From Phycisphaeraceae bacterium (lineage in GTDB: Bacteria; Planctomycetota; Phycisphaerae; Phycisphaerales; Phycisphaeraceae): DNA of 64,000 bases. The notes under the pieces are model-generated. The model was given only the letters and a program-made list of their open reading frames with translations, was not told where the DNA came from and did no database searches. Location: NCBI GenBank assembly GCA_020849625.1, contig JADLFV010000030.1, positions 1-64,000 on the forward strand, written 5' to 3'. Below, piece by piece: positions 13,200 to 58,519 of the stretch. The translations under genes were made by a program, and so were the position numbers. The number at the start of each line of letters is the position of its first letter. Within the stretch, counting starts at the first letter, position 1.

Positions 13200-14129
13200 T
13201 CACGCTCCCATCGCCGAGTAATGTTTCAATCCCACGCGCCAGGCCCATCGGCTCAGGCCGTACATCGCCACGCACCAGCCGCCGAGCATGGCGAAACCCC
13301 AGGCGATCTGGCCGGCCGACAGGCTCTGGCCGGACACCAGCTCCGCGGGAAACCACATCATGTACGGAAACGGCGTCCACATGACCAGGCGATAAACCCA
13401 ACCCGGCAGTACGTCCGGAAGGACTTGCAAGGGAAAAACCATGCCCGACAGGAACAGGTACGGCAGATAGATCAGGCCGTGGGCCGCGCTGATGCGCTCG
13501 AACCAGAACGCGCCCACCGACATCGCGTAATCCATCCAGAAACGCAGAATGAACGACAGGTGCAGGGCAGCCAGCATCAGCAGCACGTTCACCACGCCCG
13601 GCTTCCACCAGCCCGACTGCTGAGCGTCGCCCCACAATGCTTCGGGATAGAGGAAAAAGCACAGCACGAACAGCACCGCAGCCGCCGGGATGCGGGCCAG
13701 TTGCTCGCCCAGATGGGCGAAGTAAAACCGCCACGCCGGATCGATCGGCTGCAATAAAAACGGTGACAAACGCCCGCTGACCACGTGCCACTCGAAGTCG
13801 TGAATCACCCACACCACCGTGAACTGGCGCACGAAAAACACCGCGATGAAATAGCGCACCACCTGCACGCGATTGACGGAAAAATGCCCACTGGCCCCGG
13901 CCTCCGCCCACACGCCCATCATGATCAGCGGCAGGCAGGTGGCGATCGCCCACAGCACAATCTCCGCTCGGTATTCGACCATCATGGCGTAATAGGTGAC
14001 CAGGAAGGCGCGGGATTTGGAGAGGAAGGCACCAAGGGACCAAGGCACCGAGGGACCAAGGGTTTCATTGTGGGCAACGATATCCAGCCCCTTGGTGCCT
14101 TGGTGCCTCGGTGCCTTGATCCCTTTCAT
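13200..14129 (-). CDS. ABC-2 type transporter permease (first subunit) with repeat-encoded N-terminus
   Basis: 309 residues; from about residue 38 it is a typical ABC-2 permease (SRAFLVTYYAMMVEYRAEI, then six membrane helices). The start ATG at 14129 overlaps the stop of the ATPase gene by 4 nt, a translational-coupling arrangement. The first 36 or so residues are encoded by an inverted array of CACCAAGG-type units (14024-14122), so the repeat has entered the reading frame without breaking it. No alternative start codon lies between the array and the conserved part. Confidence 0.8.
   Translation of the reverse strand: MKGIKAPRHQGTKGLDIVAHNETLGPSVPWSLGAFLSKSRAFLVTYYAMMVEYRAEIVLWAIATCLPLIMMGVWAEAGASGHFSVNRVQVVRYFIAVFFVRQFTVVWVIHDFEWHVVSGRLSPFLLQPIDPAWRFYFAHLGEQLARIPAAAVLFVLCFFLYPEALWGDAQQSGWWKPGVVNVLLMLAALHLSFILRFWMDYAMSVGAFWFERISAAHGLIYLPYLFLSGMVFPLQVLPDVLPGWVYRLVMWTPFPYMMWFPAELVSGQSLSAGQIAWGFAMLGGWCVAMYGLSRWAWRVGLKHYSAMGA
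14024..14122. repeat. Inverted array pair, unit about CACCAAGG (period 8-9)
   Basis: Left arm 14024-14072 reads as tandem GGCACCAAGG / GGACCAAGG / GGCACCGAGG units. Right arm 14088-14122 is its reverse complement (CCTTGGTGCC, CCTCGGTGCC). A spacer of about 15 nt separates them. It lies wholly within the 5' part of the permease reading frame and could fold into a long hairpin in the exporter mRNA. Confidence 0.85.
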
Positions 14130-15117: not shown

Positions 15118-15230
15118 TATGGCAGATGGGGGCATGGCAAATGGCAAATGGCAGATGGCAAATGGATGGAAAGCGGCAAGGCAATCTTCATTTTCTCACA
15201 TCTGCCATTTGCCATTTACCATCTGCCATG
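15118..15230. repeat. Inverted array pair, unit ATGGCAA/ATGGCAG (period 7)
   Basis: Left arm 15118-15168 repeats ATGGCAA and ATGGCAG words. Right arm 15199-15230 carries the reverse complement (TGCCATT, TGCCATC). A spacer of about 30 nt includes ATCTTCATTTTCTC. The pair fills the gap between the ABC ATPase start and the end of the nuclease gene. Confidence 0.85.
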
Positions 15231-19685: not shown

Positions 19686-19869
19686 AGGAACCGCAGATTT
19701 CGCAGATGACGCAGATTAAGAAGGCATGAAACCGCGGATGAACGCAGATGAACGCGGATAAAGAACAAGACTTTGAGTTTTATCCGCGTTCATCAGCGTT
19801 TCATCTGCGTTCATCCGCGTTATCTTGTTTGAGAAATCTGCGTCATCTGCGAAATCTGCGGTTCCTCCG
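19686..19869. repeat. Nested inverted array pairs, units CGCAGATGA / CGGATGAA
   Basis: An outer pair (19686-19718 and 19831-19867; GCAGATTTC, GCAGATGAC units, period 9) encloses an inner pair (about 19729-19771 and 19776-19829; GCGGATGAAC, GCAGATGAAC units, period about 10). Each pair is a near-perfect inverted repeat around its own centre, and the inner unit appears inserted in the outer one. The whole fills the gap between gnd and the following dehydrogenase gene and could fold into a stem of about 90 bp. Confidence 0.9.
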
Positions 19870-23068: not shown

Positions 23069-23575
23069 GGTGTAAACTCGAAATCCGAAACTCGAAACTC
23101 GAAATAAACTCAAAACCACAAACTCGCAGTCGGAATTGTTACGTCCTTTCCTTTTTCAGGATGGCGCCGAAGATCAGGTTCAGTTCTTTGGCTTCCTGCC
23201 ACAGTTGGCGAGCTTCGTCGCGCTGGGCGGGTTCGGCGGCGGCGATCATGCGCAGCCAGTGCTTGGATTCTTTGGCTTCCTTGCGACACAAGGCGATACG
23301 ATGGCCGAAATCCTTGCGCGAAATCGCATCCTCCGCTTCCAGATAATTGGCGCCGACGCTCGTGGCCGATCGCGTCAACTGGTCGATCAGCCGTAGATTC
23401 ACCGTGTCCCGCGGCAGCACCTTACAGAACCGCACAATCGCCTCTCCAAACCGAGCCGTCCGCTCATCCAGATCATAGGGCTTTTCTGCCTCGGATTGAG
23501 CGTTGTGATCGGGCATACGGTCCGTATTTCGAGTTTGAGGTTTATTTCGAGTTTCGAATTTCGAGTTTCGAGTTT
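23069..23575. mobile_element. Candidate S23/IVP element with inverted CGAAACT arrays
   Basis: The whole gap between the lolE stop (23576-23578) and the lolD start (23068) is made of a left array (about 23074-23123; CGAAACT, CGAAATAAACTC units), a four-helix-bundle protein gene, and a right array (about 23525-23575; TTTCGAGTTTCGA units) that is the reverse complement of the left. Known intervening sequences in bacterial 23S rRNA genes have the same parts: inverted termini around an S23/IVP-type gene. I infer a related mobile unit in an intergenic site. The same arrays recur without the gene at 56.9-57.1 kb. Confidence 0.6.
23139..23516 (-). CDS. Four-helix-bundle protein (S23/IVP, TIGR02436-like)
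   Basis: 125 residues from ATG 23516 (MPDHNAQSE). The core LTRSATSVGANYLEAEDA, followed by RKDFGHRIALCRKEAKESKHW, is the signature of the 23S-rRNA-intervening-sequence protein family, which forms pentameric four-helix bundles and is related to the accessory protein Avd of diversity-generating retroelements. An upstream ATG at 23579 would add residues encoded only by the array. No Shine-Dalgarno is visible. It separates lolE from lolD on the same strand, and both flanks are repeat arrays, so it looks like cargo of a mobile unit. Confidence 0.85.
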   Translation of the reverse strand: MPDHNAQSEAEKPYDLDERTARFGEAIVRFCKVLPRDTVNLRLIDQLTRSATSVGANYLEAEDAISRKDFGHRIALCRKEAKESKHWLRMIAAAEPAQRDEARQLWQEAKELNLIFGAILKKERT

Positions 23576-25189: not shown

Positions 25190-25275
25190 GACAGGATGAC
25201 AGGATGGACAGGATTTACAGGATAAAAACCCTGAATTGAATCCTGTTAATCCGTCTTCATCCTGTTGATCCTGTC
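25190..25275. repeat. Inverted array pair, unit ACAGGATG (period 8-9)
   Basis: Left arm 25190-25224 holds four ACAGGAT units with changing linkers. Right arm about 25240-25275 holds the reverse complement ATCCTGT. The spacer is about 15 nt. It lies directly upstream of the LolE-type gene, between it and lysS, and would be in the 5' leader of lolE. Confidence 0.85.
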
Positions 25276-35941: not shown

Positions 35942-36825
35942 ACAAGCAGGAAACGACCACCCGTTGGCCGCTGGGGGTGACGGCGGTCATGCTTTCGTCC
36001 CTTGATTTCGATCAGCAGATCGCCTTGTGCCGCGAGTTGGGAGTGACGCACTACGTCTATCGCCCGCGCATCATCGCTGACGATCAGCGCGACAAACCTT
36101 TCAGCAACTGGGGCAATCACAAGTTCGACCTGACCCCGGCCCGGCTGCTGAAGCAAGGCGCCCAGCTTACGCAGCGCCTGCGCCAGGCGGGCCTGCAACC
36201 GTTCGGCACCGTGCCCAACGCCACGGCTGATGACGATTCGCAGGCCATACAACTGCACATGGCCGGGGCCGCGGCGGCCGGCTGCACACGGGTGCGCGTC
36301 GCTCCGCCGCGCTATCCGCAGGGCTTGTTTGACTATGGCGAATACTTGGCCCGCACCATCGAGTGTTTCAAGCAGGTGGTGGCTGTGGCCAGACCCATGG
36401 GCATCAAGCCGGTGATCGAGATGCACGCCAATTCCGCCGCCACCTCGCCGGGATTATCGCGGCTGATCGTGCAGTCGTTCGACCCGGCCGAACTGGGCCT
36501 GATCCTCGATCTGCCCAACGCCGCCATCGAGGGCTACGTGTCGCCCGACCTTGCGGTCAGTGCCGTGGCGGACTGGATCGATCACCTGCACGTGGGCGGC
36601 GCAAAACGCACCGACGGCGAACGCGACGAGCACGGCTATCTGCGCGGTGGACGCGAGTTCTGCGCCCTGGTCGATAACCCCATCGGCGTCCCTGCATGGC
36701 TGAACGTGCTGGCGCAACTGGATCGGCCGATCCCCCTGATCATCGAAGACTACCGCGGCGGCGGCGGCAAAGACGACGCCGAACGCCTGCGCCAGTCCGT
36801 CGAGCAACTGCGACGATTGTTATGA
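35938..36825 (+). CDS. Sugar phosphate isomerase/epimerase-like TIM barrel
   Basis: 295 residues of the xylose-isomerase-like/AP endonuclease 2 superfamily. Seen are the barrel strands and metal-ligand-like segments: PVIEMHANSAATSP (Glu and His), GLILDLPNAAIEG (Asp), DHLHVGGAKR (His) and PLIIEDYRGGG (Glu). Such proteins isomerise or epimerise sugars or inositols. Starts in the ATGA overlap with the small gene before it. A GCAGTAGG array begins immediately after its stop. Confidence 0.8.
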   Translation: MNKQETTTRWPLGVTAVMLSSLDFDQQIALCRELGVTHYVYRPRIIADDQRDKPFSNWGNHKFDLTPARLLKQGAQLTQRLRQAGLQPFGTVPNATADDDSQAIQLHMAGAAAAGCTRVRVAPPRYPQGLFDYGEYLARTIECFKQVVAVARPMGIKPVIEMHANSAATSPGLSRLIVQSFDPAELGLILDLPNAAIEGYVSPDLAVSAVADWIDHLHVGGAKRTDGERDEHGYLRGGREFCALVDNPIGVPAWLNVLAQLDRPIPLIIEDYRGGGGKDDAERLRQSVEQLRRLL

Positions 36826-36826
36826 G

Positions 36827-36915
36827 GCAGTAGGGAGTAGGCAGTAGGCAGTAGGGTTTGGATTTCAGTGACGTATCCTGCTACAACCCCTACACCCTAC
36901 TCCCTACACCCTGCC
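36827..36915. repeat. Inverted array pair, unit GGCAGTA (period 7)
   Basis: Left arm 36827-36857 (GGCAGTA, GGGAGTA units) and right arm about 36879-36915 (CCTACAC, CCTACTC, CCTACAC, CCTGCC units), with a spacer of about 22 nt. It fills the gap from the isomerase stop to 2 nt before the lipid kinase start and so replaces any Shine-Dalgarno there. Confidence 0.85.
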
Positions 36916-38525: not shown

Positions 38526-38553
38526 AGCATAGCGGCAGGGCGGGGGGAGACAA
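38526..38553 (-). promoter_or_regulatory. Candidate promoter of the TPR-YggX gene, partly within a repeat array
   Basis: On the minus strand TATGCT (38531-38526) ends 6 nt before ATG 38519, and TTGTCT (38553-38548) lies 16 nt upstream as a possible -35. The -35-like word belongs to the GACAAGG array, so the array may supply part of the promoter. The transcript would be leaderless. Confidence 0.4.
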
Positions 38554-38653
38554 GGAGGCATGAAGACAGGGAGACATGAAGACAAGCAGACAAGGAGCTC
38601 GTTGTCCCAGGCGCTCTGCGTGCAATCCCCTTGACTCCTTGTCCCCTTGTCTG
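38545..38653. repeat. Inverted array pair, unit AGACAAGG (period about 8)
   Basis: Left arm about 38545-38598 (GAGACAAGG, GAAGACAGG, GAGACATGA, GACAAGCA units) and a shorter right arm about 38629-38653 (CCTTGACT, CCTTGTCC, CCTTGTCT). They lie between the divergent TPR-YggX and AddB-like genes. Confidence 0.8.
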
Positions 38654-50995: not shown

Positions 50996-51877
50996 ATGGC
51001 GGGAAAAACGCGAGAAATCAGAGGCCGAATGAAAGCGGTGGGCAACATCCGCCGCATCACCAAGACCATGCAGATGATCGCCACGGCCCGCTTTCAGGCC
51101 ATGCAGAAGCGCGCGGTCAACGCTCAGGCTTATACGCGGAGCATCGCCCGGATCGCCTCCGACCTGGCTGCCAGTCTGGCCGGTCAGGAGGTCAGCAATC
51201 CCCTGCTGAGCGCTCCGCAGCCCAAGGCCGGGCGGCAACTGCTGCTGGTGATCAGTTCCAACCGCGGCCTGTGCGGGGCCTACAACGCCAACGTGCTGCG
51301 TGCCTCCACCGCTTTCATCCGCCGGCAGACCGAGCCGCTGGACGTGGAGGTGGTGGGCAAGAAGGGCACCAGCTTTTTCCGTTTCAACAAAATCAGCGCC
51401 AAGTCGTACAGTCACTTCGGCGACACGCCGCGCTACGAGGACGTGGTGGAACTGGCCCAACAGTACATGGAGCAGTTCACCGCGGGCAAGTACGACGCCA
51501 TCCACGTGGCGTTCATGAGTTTCGAAAGCGCTTCGCGGCAGACAGCGACCATCACGCAGTTGCTGCCCATGCAGCCCCCTGCGCAGGAAACTCGAAACTC
51601 GAAACTCGAAACTCGAAACTTGGTTTACGAGTTCAGCCCCGGGCCTGCCGAGCTGTTAAGCGATTTGTTGCCGGTGACGGTGAAAGCGACGCTGTTCCAG
51701 TGCTTCAACGAAGCGGTGGTCAGCGAGCAGGTCTCGCGCATGGTGGCCATGAAGAGCGCCACCGACGCGGGCGAAAAGATGGGCAAGAGTCTGCAGCGCC
51801 GCTACAACCGGGCCCGGCAGACCGCCATCACCACCGAACTGTCGGAAATCATCGGCGGCTCGGCGACCATGGGATAA
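50996..51877 (+). CDS. atpG: ATP synthase subunit gamma with in-frame repeat array
   Basis: 293 residues; central rotor stalk of F1. N-terminal coiled coil REIRGRMKAVGNIRRITKTM and C-terminal SRMVAMKSATDAGEKMG are well conserved, and SNRGLCGAYN marks the globular domain. Residues about 198-208 (ETRNSKLETRN) are encoded by an array of CGAAACT units placed in the variable loop before YEFSPGPAELL. The gene is at the head of the operon instead of between atpA and atpD. The start MAGKTREIRG is preferred over two upstream ATGs in frame that add no conserved sequence. Confidence 0.93.
   Translation: MAGKTREIRGRMKAVGNIRRITKTMQMIATARFQAMQKRAVNAQAYTRSIARIASDLAASLAGQEVSNPLLSAPQPKAGRQLLLVISSNRGLCGAYNANVLRASTAFIRRQTEPLDVEVVGKKGTSFFRFNKISAKSYSHFGDTPRYEDVVELAQQYMEQFTAGKYDAIHVAFMSFESASRQTATITQLLPMQPPAQETRNSKLETRNLVYEFSPGPAELLSDLLPVTVKATLFQCFNEAVVSEQVSRMVAMKSATDAGEKMGKSLQRRYNRARQTAITTELSEIIGGSATMG
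51587..51620 (+). repeat. CGAAACT array inside atpG
   Basis: Four to five perfect tandem copies of ACTCGAA (period 7), preceded by GGAA and followed by CTTGG. Same word as the arrays around the four-helix-bundle gene (23.1 and 23.5 kb) and after atpA (57 kb). Only one arm is present. Its total length keeps atpG open, although 7 is not a multiple of 3. Confidence 0.85.
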
Positions 51878-51948
51878 GCGGGTCATCGTGTCCGCGTGTT
51901 TGCCGGGTTTGACCGGCGATTGACTGCCTCCTAGGCTAAGGGCCTCAA

Positions 51949-52200
51949 ATGGCCAGGGATGAGCCGACGAAGCTATGGGCACTGGCAGGAATGGGAATGG
52001 AGTTTGCAACGGCCCTGCTGGTGTTCGGCGGGATCGGCTGGTACCTGGATCGCCGTTGGGATTGCGGACCGTGGCTGACGCTGACAGGATCGTTATGCGG
52101 CGCTGCGGTCGGGTTTTACGTCTTCATCGTCCGTGCTCGAGCCGCCACTCGCGACAGCCGGGCGTCGGGCAAGGATATCACTGACCGAAAACATGACTGA
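51949..52200 (+). CDS. AtpZ/AtpI-like small membrane protein
   Basis: 83 residues with two membrane helices (about 13-31 and 41-60) separated by WYLDRRWDCGPW, the pattern of AtpZ (putative F0F1-ATPase subunit). Proteins of this family associate with F0 and may assist c-ring assembly or Mg/Ca transport with AtpI. It lies 71 nt after atpG, and its end overlaps the next gene by 8 nt. Confidence 0.8.
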   Translation: MARDEPTKLWALAGMGMEFATALLVFGGIGWYLDRRWDCGPWLTLTGSLCGAAVGFYVFIVRARAATRDSRASGKDITDRKHD

Positions 52201-52651
52201 CCAGACCGACCAGACAGCCTGCCAAACCGTCACGCCGATGCCCATTGGCCGGATCGTGGCGCGCCTGATGGGCGTGGCCCTGATGCTGCTGGCGGTGGTC
52301 GCGCCACTGGCGGCTGTGCTGGAGGCAGCCTGGGTCGGGGCGGTGGCGGCCTGGGGCGTCTGCCTGGCGGCGATGCTATGCGGTCTGGCGCCGATGTGGG
52401 CCATGAGCCGCATGAATCCGCAGACGGCCGTGCTGGCCCCGCTGGTGGCGCTGGTGGTGCGGTTGTTCGTGGCGGCGGCGGGCATCGCAGTGTTGATCAT
52501 GGTCGTTGCTCTGCCCATGCCGGCCACGGTCTGGTGGGCGATGACGTGGTACCTGGTCCTGATGGGCTGCGAAGTGGCGCTGCTTTATCGGCAGAATGTC
52601 GCGCTACGGACGCCGGCAATCAATCCCACGGGACAAAGGGCGGGAGCGTAA
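52193..52651 (+). CDS. AtpI-like four-helix membrane protein
   Basis: 152 residues with four hydrophobic segments (about 20-45, 47-70, 82-107, 112-132). Position between the AtpZ-like gene and atpB, and the overall layout, match AtpI/AtpR-type F0 accessory proteins, but the sequence is too divergent to name confidently. It starts within the end of the preceding gene (8-nt overlap), so it is translationally coupled. Confidence 0.7.
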   Translation: MTDQTDQTACQTVTPMPIGRIVARLMGVALMLLAVVAPLAAVLEAAWVGAVAAWGVCLAAMLCGLAPMWAMSRMNPQTAVLAPLVALVVRLFVAAAGIAVLIMVVALPMPATVWWAMTWYLVLMGCEVALLYRQNVALRTPAINPTGQRAGA

Positions 52652-52657
52652 TCGGAC

Positions 52658-53569
52658 ATGTTCATCCTGGCCTCATCCAATCCGCTCGAGCACGTGCTGC
52701 CGCACCCCGTGTTTCACATCGGCGGCTTCGCGGTGACCAATCACCTGATCATGAGCACCTTTGCCGCGCTGCTGGTGCTGGTCACGTTCATGTGGGTCGC
52801 TTCACGGGTCAAAGTCCGCGGAACCGGCACCGATTCCTACCTGACCAAAGGCAATCTGGCTCATATGTTCGAGACCATGTGCGTCTTCATCCGCGAGCAG
52901 GTGGCCCGGCCCAACCTCAAGCACCTGACCGACAAGTACATCTACTATCTCTGGACCGTCTTCTTCTTCATCCTCTTCTGTAACCTGCTGGGGATGATTC
53001 CCTTCGGCTACATCGCTTCGCTGATCATCTCGGCGGCCGGCGGCAACGGCAACGACTGGTCCATGCTCGGCGGTACGGCCACCAGCAATCTCTCGCTGAA
53101 CGTGCCCCTGGCCCTGACCGCGTTCACCGCCATCGTGTTCATCGGCATTCGCGAGTCAGGCGTTGCTTACTTCAAGCACTTCGCCCCCGGGCCGGCCTAC
53201 ATGTGGCCTCTGATCATTCCGCTGGAGGTCATGAGCCTGTTTATCAAGTGCACGGTCCTGGCTGTGCGTTTGTTCGGAACCATGCTGGCTGGTCACCTGG
53301 TGCTGGCCGCCCTGGTGGGGATGATCTTCATCTTCGCCAACCTCTCGCCCGTGCTGGGCTACGGCGTGGGCATCGGCGTGGTGCTGCTGAACCTGGTGCT
53401 GTCGCTGCTGGAACTGTTCATCGCGATGCTCCAGGCGTTCATCTTCACGTTCCTGACCACGCTGTTCATCGCCCAGGGAGCCGTACACGACGATCACGGG
53501 CATGAACACGATCACGAACACGACCCTGCGTTAGCGTTTGACCCGGCCGAGGTCCGTAGCCCGGCCTGA
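52658..53569 (+). CDS. atpB: ATP synthase subunit a
   Basis: 303 residues; forms the proton half-channels of F0. The essential arginine is R204 in TVLAVRLFGTMLAGH, and ELFIAMLQAFIFTFLTTLFI is the conserved last helix. The C-terminus carries an unusual His/Asp-rich tail (HDDHGHEHDHEHD) that might bind metal ions. An extra segment with SAAGGNGNDW lies between helices. In the usual operon place before atpE. Confidence 0.93.
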   Translation: MFILASSNPLEHVLPHPVFHIGGFAVTNHLIMSTFAALLVLVTFMWVASRVKVRGTGTDSYLTKGNLAHMFETMCVFIREQVARPNLKHLTDKYIYYLWTVFFFILFCNLLGMIPFGYIASLIISAAGGNGNDWSMLGGTATSNLSLNVPLALTAFTAIVFIGIRESGVAYFKHFAPGPAYMWPLIIPLEVMSLFIKCTVLAVRLFGTMLAGHLVLAALVGMIFIFANLSPVLGYGVGIGVVLLNLVLSLLELFIAMLQAFIFTFLTTLFIAQGAVHDDHGHEHDHEHDPALAFDPAEVRSPA

Positions 53570-53576
53570 TTCATGA

Positions 53577-53876
<300 letters not shown>

Positions 53877-53927
53877 TCAATCACTGACGCTTCCCGCCGC
53901 GCCGTTTCGGCGCAAGGATGGCCCAGG

Positions 53928-54605
53928 ATGCTCATGACCCTGCGACGTTCGTGTCCCATACTGCTGGTGATGCTCTGTCTGCTGGCAGCGCCGGCCGGAC
54001 TGTCGGCAGCAGCAGAGACCCATGAAGCCCCCGCACCCGATCAAGAGACGTCGGTCACTGCGACTGATCCTCATGGCGAAGCCTCGGTACACGAGCAGGA
54101 ACAAATGCCGTTCCTGCTGAGCGTGGACCTGGGCTCGGCCGTGTGGAACATGGTGGTCTTTCTGCTGCTGCTGCTGTTCCTGGCCAAGTTTGTCTGGCCT
54201 TCCATTTTGGGAGGACTGCGGCAGCGCGAAGAGAAGATCCGCGGCGACCTGGATGCGGCCGCCAAAGCTTCCGCCGAAGCCAAGGCCACGCTGGATCAGT
54301 ATCACCAGCAACTGACCGCCGCCCGCCAGGAAGCTCAGCAGATCATCGAGCAGTCGCGCACCGACGCTCAGAAGGTGGCCGACCAGCTCAAGAAGGACGC
54401 CCACGCTGAGATCACGCACATGCGCAAGCGCGCCGAAGCGGACATCCGCGCTGCCGGCGAGCAAGCCATTGCGACCATCTACGAGCAGGCGGCCGGGCTT
54501 TCGACCTCCATCGCCGGCCGCATCCTGCAGCGCGAGATCGACCCCGCAGCCCACCAGGCCCTGGTCGATCAGTCGCTCCAGCAGTTGCAGGCGGAGCAGA
54601 ACTGA
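53928..54605 (+). CDS. atpF: ATP synthase subunit b with N-terminal signal peptide
   Basis: 225 residues; peripheral stalk. A signal-peptide-like segment (residues about 9-27, ending GLSAAAE) precedes a variable linker and the membrane helix (about 68-88, VWNMVVFLLLLLFLAKFVWP). A long charged coiled coil follows (REEKIRGDLDAAAKASAEAK). Subunits b with a cleavable leader are seen in planctomycetes and some other groups. The next small gene starts 2 nt after its stop. Confidence 0.92.
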   Translation: MLMTLRRSCPILLVMLCLLAAPAGLSAAAETHEAPAPDQETSVTATDPHGEASVHEQEQMPFLLSVDLGSAVWNMVVFLLLLLFLAKFVWPSILGGLRQREEKIRGDLDAAAKASAEAKATLDQYHQQLTAARQEAQQIIEQSRTDAQKVADQLKKDAHAEITHMRKRAEADIRAAGEQAIATIYEQAAGLSTSIAGRILQREIDPAAHQALVDQSLQQLQAEQN

Positions 54606-54607
54606 CC

Positions 54608-54784
54608 ATGCGCAAGGCAGCTTACATGGCGGTGATCTTCACCTTCGGTCTGTGGACCGGCGGCATCTTCGCGCCCAACCAGACCCCGGCTGTCGATCAT
54701 CGCCCGCAGGTTCAGGATGTTGCGGTTCAGACCGTTCCCCAGGCCCCCACCCCGCAGGAGACGCCCGAACGTGGGCAACGCTAA
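54608..54784 (+). CDS. Small membrane-anchored protein inside the atp operon
   Basis: 58 residues, MRKAAYMAVIFTFGLWTGG at the start giving one short membrane helix or signal anchor, then a Pro/Gln/Val-rich tail (about 24-58; PQVQDVAVQTVPQAPTPQE). It starts 2 nt after atpF and overlaps the start of atpH by 14 nt, so it is most likely a real translated gene of the operon. I do not recognise the family. It might be a planctomycete-specific accessory subunit. Confidence 0.6.
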   Translation: MRKAAYMAVIFTFGLWTGGIFAPNQTPAVDHRPQVQDVAVQTVPQAPTPQETPERGQR

Positions 54785-55367
54785 TCCCTCCAACACGACA
54801 ACCGCCATCGATCGCACCTATGCCGCGGCTCTCCTCCAGATGGCCGATGCCGAAGGAAGGCTCGATGAGGTGGCCGACGAGGTCAACCAATTGGCGCAAC
54901 TGCTGCGCGACAACGAATCGCTCCACAAACTGCTGGCCTGCCGCACCTTGACCGTCGGCGAGATGCAGAGCGTGCTCGAACGGCTTTTCGCCGGCCGTGT
55001 CAGCGACCTGGTCTATCGCTTCCTGCAGGTGGTCAATCGCAAGAGCCGCCTGGGCGAACTGGCTGGATTTCTCGATGCCTTCAACGTCCTGCTGGATCGC
55101 AAGCGTGGCATTCTGGAGGTGGACCTGTTCACCGCCAGCCAGCTTGACCGTTCAGCCGTCGATCGCATCGCCGGCGAACTCGGCCGCAAACTCAGCAAGC
55201 AGGTCGTGGTCCACCAGTCCGTCGAAAGCACCCTCATCGGCGGCCTGAAACTGCGCATCGGCGACCAACTGATCGACGCCAGCGTGGCGACCCAGTTGGA
55301 ACAGATGAAACAGAAACTGATCGAGCAGGGAAGAGAAAAAGCCCGCCTGGCTACGGCGACCGGCTGA
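54771..55367 (+). CDS. atpH: ATP synthase subunit delta
   Basis: 198 residues from the GTG at 54771, which has AGGAG 10 nt upstream. It connects the peripheral stalk to F1. [20 protein letters not shown] is the typical beginning, and [18 protein letters not shown] is the conserved C-terminal motif (G-G-x-x-x-x-I-G-D-x-x-x-D-x-S). Followed 25 nt later by atpA. Confidence 0.92.
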
Positions 55368-55392
55368 GAAATCCATCGCAGAGATTCATTCC

Positions 55393-56931
<1,539 letters not shown>

Positions 56932-56945
56932 CGACCACGGCGGGG

Positions 56946-57085
56946 AATCTCGAAACCCGAAACCAGAAACTCGAAATAAACTCAAGACTCGAACACCAAA
57001 AAGCCGCTGACAAGGTCTGTTTTGAGGTTTTGGTTTTGGGATTTATTTCGAGTTTCGGGTTTCGAGTTTCGGGTTTCTGGTTTTT
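56946..57085. repeat. Inverted CGAAACT array pair without a gene
   Basis: Left arm 56946-56997 (CGAAACC, CGAAACC, AGAAACTCGAAATAAACTC units) and right arm about 57041-57085 (TTTATTTCGAGTTTCGGG units) are reverse complements. The core ACTCGAAATAAACTCA is shared with the arrays that flank the four-helix-bundle gene. The interior (about 45 nt) has no gene, so this may be a non-autonomous version. It lies just after atpA. Confidence 0.85.
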
Positions 57086-57211
57086 GCCTCCGCATGGCGT
57101 GTCATGCACCCCCAGCGGCGTCATAACAACCGGCGGACTGGCCAAAGGCTTACAATCAGTCTAAACTTACGGGACTAGGCATATACCTCCCCGCCATGAT
57201 GAGGGCTTACC

Positions 57212-58519
<1,308 letters not shown>

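Follow-up and report, generated by a model that had tools for sequence, protein, structure and literature searches.

How does a perfect tandem repeat come to be translated inside the gamma subunit of an ATP synthase? We addressed this question in a window of 64,000 nucleotides (the whole stretch of DNA analysed), in the genome to which the window belongs (G000), and in other genomes of the class, which are largely metagenome assemblies and include none of the same genus. We consider it likely that the array in atpG belongs, as a solo copy, to a mobile-like family of heptamer repeats dispersed in the genome, and that it is tolerated in a loop of the protein.

The heptamer array in atpG

The gene, the loop and the array lie as follows.

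50996–51877, plus strand: atpG, ATP synthase F1 gamma, 293 amino acids, ATG start (profile matches)
51560–51640, plus strand: array-bearing hypervariable loop, between LLP and YEFSP (alignment of relatives; low pLDDT)
51587–51620, plus strand: perfect heptamer array, (GAAACTC)x4.86, encoding ETRNSKLETRN in frame (TRF)

TRF assigned the array a unit of GAAACTC, a period of 7, 4.9 copies and a 100% match. It is 34 nt long, begins in phase 0 of the reading frame and has no inverted partner. The earlier note, made from the letters of the window, had read four to five in-frame copies encoding ETRNSKLETRN and had described the rest of gamma as intact. Both statements hold, and atpG is otherwise complete (275 bits to Pfam ATP-synt and 245 bits to TIGR01146). 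Because a search of the genome returned one gamma match only, the array-bearing atpG is presumably the working copy. Judged from the perfect repeats alone, the array's age is suggested to be recent. We considered GAGTTTCGA as a left arm of the array and rejected it as a chance match: it lies upstream, within the conserved MSFES codons, and no comparable partner accompanies the remaining in-gene arrays of G000. The ATP synthase cluster (50996–58519) runs in the order atpG, ATPase_gene1, an unassigned ORF, atpB, E, F, H and A, followed by citrate synthase; the beta and epsilon genes are not downstream of atpA in the window cluster.

A dispersed repeat family with two forms

In the window, the word ACTCGAA has 21 occurrences where 5.2 are expected, a roughly fourfold excess that 0 of 100 shuffles reached. 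The earlier note had seen the array word around an S23 gene and after atpA. It is indeed present at both, as inverted arrays flanking the S23 gene (23076–23103 and 23528–23573; see below) and as a hairpin (56951–57083) with an RNA fold of −69.8 kcal/mol (z −8.4):

56945–57092, no strand assigned: S23-less hairpin 3' of atpA, with inverted AAACTCG/AAACCCG arrays and AAATAAA (fold)

Throughout G000, a 17-mer of the array gave 138 matches with ≤1 mismatch versus 1 for the reversed control. Perfect or near-perfect tandem 7-mers recur at many sites. The exact sites number 32, and we classified the regions of all of them, with genes predicted by codon usage, as 25 intergenic and 7 coding. These classes differ in form. 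An inverted partner was found within ~170 nt at 23 of the 25 intergenic sites versus 0 of the 7 coding sites, so that the family includes numerous short, dispersed copies whose ends are inverted; at the S23 site, the partner is on the far side of the gene. Likewise, the stop-bearing AAATAAA is nearby at 18/25 intergenic and 0/7 coding sites. Coding arrays in this genome are solo and stop-free. They are located in atpG, a GGDEF protein, a capD-like polysaccharide biosynthesis enzyme, a rhomboid protein, a sulfatase-like protein, E2 (dihydrolipoamide acyltransferase) and a prepilin, their coding status being taken from open frames and homology. An interrupted copy is present in ParB.

The ParB, prepilin and GGDEF copies have a GGCCGCAACAGCGGC-like core in common with some hairpins. 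A conserved CGGCCGCAACAGCGGCNNNGCCGCT-like core also stands between heptamer arrays of varied units, both in these three genes and in hairpin arms (L175, L191, L205, L215, L217–L220). The capD-like array (L176, 2269–2301) is enclosed as a loop by a perfect 13-bp inverted repeat, CCCGCCCCCGGAA / TTCCGGGGGCGGG, and CCCCGCCCCCGGAA, which resembles that inverted repeat, is upstream of the rhomboid array (L177). The window holds other tandem arrays with units of 7–10 bp, several of them inverted pairs (14026–14118, 36825–36912, 38546–38651, 15134–15229, 19692–19860 and 25190–25274). Those at 14026–14118 and 36825–36912 fold far beyond shuffles (z −7.6 and −4.5), and one unit among these arrays, AGGCAGT, matches the unit flanking another S23 gene.

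Position, strand and length of the in-gene copies

Of 397 class genomes, 10 contain the exact array (as a 21-mer), and there it comes in bursts with as many as 25 matches. Beyond atpG, we found at least 17 in-gene copies that are in frame, in four genomes and in several near-universal proteins. In G022, which belongs to a different genus of the family and whose gamma is 64% identical, full inverted pairs are in frame in a complete RecG, a complete PriA and an MnmE-like GTPase, and a single array is in an ABC ATPase. In G143, which is of a different family, one CarB holds two arrays, and PdxA, cardiolipin synthase and a coiled protein hold one each; in G194, Maf holds a single array. The two in-frame arrays of the G143 carB (L377, 729–4229) are ~820 bp apart. 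In L363 (G045:C5), a perfect 74-nt array of the GAAACTC heptamer has 10.6 copies, far longer than any in-gene copy, and an open frame of >500 amino acids runs on past it.

All in-gene copies whose location we checked are in length-variable loops or linkers, which agrees with the earlier note's view that such arrays get into essential genes at places that the protein can tolerate. The E2 array falls in the linker that joins the E3-binding domain to the catalytic domain, and the ParB copy is in the loop preceding Y[EQ]IVAGERRW. For the capD-like enzyme, the alignments of relatives break at approximately residues 262–295 (with G008, 34 residues stand against about four). When the G022 RecG is aligned with the solved RecG 1gm5, its insert falls in the stretch flanked by QREAL and LVMSATP. 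The second CarB array of G143 is between KP and GVIVQ(F/Y)GGQTP, with ~19 residues beyond the bacterial CarB 1bxr.

Read in triplets, the 7-nt unit cycles through all three frames in 21 nt and encodes ETRNSKL in sense and EFRVSSF in antisense, without stops. Solo in-gene copies (8 in G000, 5 in G143, 1 in G194 and 1 in G022) read ETRNSKL in 15 of 15 cases and the antisense EFRVSSF in 0 of 15 (two-sided binomial, 6e-5). Their strand is thus biased.

Array lengths within genes of G000 and G143 are mostly 32–35 nt. This clustering suggests a discrete copied piece over open-ended slippage. Local replication slippage would have a chance GAAACTC among the loop codons grow in place, independently of the other arrays. 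Many bacteria favour heptamers among long simple repeats, and slippage has been proposed for them (reviewed in PMC4679880, PMC4692102), and the gamma loop is free to vary. Even so, we consider this origin unlikely, as the identical heptamer recurs in at least seven other genes and at 25 intergenic sites of G000 as well as in core genes of other families, and the in-gene lengths bunch without spread.

A more improbable explanation is that the heptamer is a signal used by the host, a regulatory or structural DNA or RNA site such as a terminator or an RNase III hairpin, placed by need. The intergenic copies are very stable hairpins close to gene ends, and a regulatory role has been proposed for the TAACTGA heptamers of Beggiatoaceae (PMC4679880). 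The in-gene copies of G000, however, are unpaired, the atpG array region shows no significant gain in RNA folding over shuffles (z −1.3), and the exact array is missing from 387 of the 397 class genomes.

The array occupies a hypervariable loop of gamma

We aligned gammas from 47 genomes of the order and took loop lengths at a further 50 loci on GTDB contigs, two sets that possibly overlap in part. Among these ~97 relatives, the segment from LLP to Y[DE]FSP is unalignable and has a length of 14 to 39 residues. The window loop, at 19 residues, is within this range. In an AlphaFold model built from 46 gammas, with an overall pLDDT of 92.9, the sole low-pLDDT segment is the array loop, residues 191–210 (block means of 79 and 63).

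The earlier note had described an insert in the variable loop. The array is in frame and in such a loop, but the loop has an ordinary length. Without the 11 array residues, 8 residues would be left, fewer than in every one of the ~97 relatives, and a simple net insertion into atpG is unsupported because of this remainder. It is more likely that the array took the place of loop sequence, or arrived together with a deletion, instead of adding length. For E2 as for atpG, we rejected net insertion, which loop and linker lengths disfavour.

The earlier note had also proposed aligning Phycisphaerae gammas, on the grounds that an ETRNSK-like loop encoded by divergent codons in close relatives would mark conserved protein sequence; none of the ~97 loops contains the ETRNSKL peptide. 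It is therefore scarcely credible that ETRNSKLETRN is a selected gamma peptide comparable to the regulatory beta-hairpin of phototroph gammas, a known insertion of 30–39 residues within the Rossmann fold of the same gamma domain (PMC8390522): although alignments of PDB chloroplast gammas to the window gamma break at residue 196, beside the array, the peptide is in 0/97 relatives, ETRNSKL also occurs in unrelated proteins, and protein selection does not demand a perfect 7-mer repeat in the DNA.

S23 genes between inverted arrays

Among the genes checked, the S23 gene was the only one to match the ends of the dispersed arrays. In the window, its ORF is within a complementary stem, between protein genes and outside 23S rRNA:

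23074–23115, plus strand: left AAACTCG array at the S23 gene (repeat search)
23139–23513, minus strand: S23 / four-helix-bundle gene (PF05635, 54 bits)
23527–23575, minus strand: right AAACTCG array at the S23 gene, inverted (repeat search)

The S23 loci that we examined, in G000 and its relatives, number 33 (L294, L295, L297–L299 and L324–L352). At least three inverted 12-mers are common to both flanks at 19/33 S23 loci versus 0/80 control loci. The inverted match between flanks exceeds the 95% level of mismatched (cross-locus) flanks at 28 of the 33 loci, and the 99% level at 13/33 versus 0/78 control genes. Arrays with period 7 or 14 were found in 39 of the 66 flanks and with period 8 in 9 of 66. 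Their units vary by locus and include AGTAGGC, CGGGTAT, AAATCTA, CTAATGT and others. G022, which bears in-gene AAACTCG elements, also has an AAACTCG-flanked S23 gene (L344).

On contig C31, arrays enclose a 130-aa ORF that we expected to be S23; it proved to be a Com_YlbF protein. There were no arrays beside the four Y1_Tnp (RAYT-like) genes. Our literature search on the GAAACTC unit, or on S23 with heptamers, found nothing relevant.

A tentative extension, which we think somewhat doubtful, is that S23 genes with inverted, locus-specific arrays of 7–8 bp represent, in autonomous form, an undescribed class of mobile element that is widespread in Planctomycetota. The S23-less hairpins and solo arms would then be derived forms, the S23 protein would aid copying, and frame-open arms would repeatedly enter essential genes.

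Proposed origin and significance

The commonest form of the family is the intergenic hairpin of two inverted AAACTCG arrays, often with AAATAAA close to the apex. We infer that ~33–35 nt from one hairpin arm were copied into the gamma gene, displacing part of a loop that varies freely. The copy would have been tolerated because it yields the same stop-free 7-residue peptide in all three frames, because the total length change preserved the frame, because the sense peptide ETRNSKL is hydrophilic and because the site is a disposable loop. In-gene copies with stops, frameshifts or the hydrophobic EFRVSSF would presumably be purged by selection. The family looks like selfish DNA, and it would persist in genes because no frame of the repeat contains a stop codon.

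A stop-free 7-mer is a simple design that would explain how an element remains translated whichever frame it lands in. The in-gene copies offer natural maps of insertion tolerance for AtpG, RecG, PriA, CarB, E2 and other proteins. S23 proteins, whose function has long been unknown, are tied here to inverted arrays, which makes a role testable.

Comparison with known systems

Heptanucleotide repeats are known from Calothrix, Xanthomonas and Nostoc (GGGNATC) and Beggiatoaceae (TAACTGA) as intergenic tandem heptamers, occasionally inverted or in ORFs (PMC4692102, PMC4679880). The family described here differs in that core enzymes repeatedly carry in-frame copies and that intergenic copies are, as a rule, inverted pairs. 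The coding tandem repeats of Borgs are also in ORFs and encode disordered peptides, but they arise independently at each locus (PMC9879509), whereas here one common unit is dispersed.

The intervening sequences of 23S rRNA in Leptospira and Coxiella, which have been described as selfish, likewise have an S23 gene between complementary stem-forming sequences, and their mobility via the ORF product has been hypothesised (PMC4990558). The window S23 gene is instead outside rRNA, and its stem consists of tandem heptamers in common with dispersed copies.

Some intragenic MITEs (the 107-bp NEMIS of Neisseria and the enterobacterial RU-1/ERIC) provide another likeness. As in our family, a stop-free form resides in genes and a stop-bearing form is intergenic, a distinction described for the Neisseria elements (PMC2229807). 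The arms here are tandem heptamers, and no target-site duplication or cognate transposase was identified; the nearest relative is ~64% identical in gamma, too low for a base-level alignment of an empty site.

In-frame repeat DNA in conserved enzymes is best known from Rickettsia, besides a few MITEs, and here it appears in another phylum. Rickettsia palindromic elements (RPE) are palindromes of 105–146 bp with terminal inverted repeats (Ogata et al. 2000, reviewed in PMC2229807). Like RPE, the heptamers are short repeats that occupy intergenic sites and also lie in frame within conserved protein genes, with the ORF open through the element (PMC2229807), and the in-gene copies of G022 (RecG, PriA and MnmE-like) are inverted pairs. 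Palindromic copies are these together with the intergenic ones of G000. Unlike RPE, for which no heptamer structure is described, the family has a 7-bp tandem unit that is open whatever the frame, and in genes it mostly takes the form of single, unpaired ~34-nt arms. The 34-nt unpaired atpG copy has neither the size nor the palindrome of an RPE, and for this reason we do not class it as one. From described features rather than sequence, the heptamer family would appear to work like RPE while being built differently.
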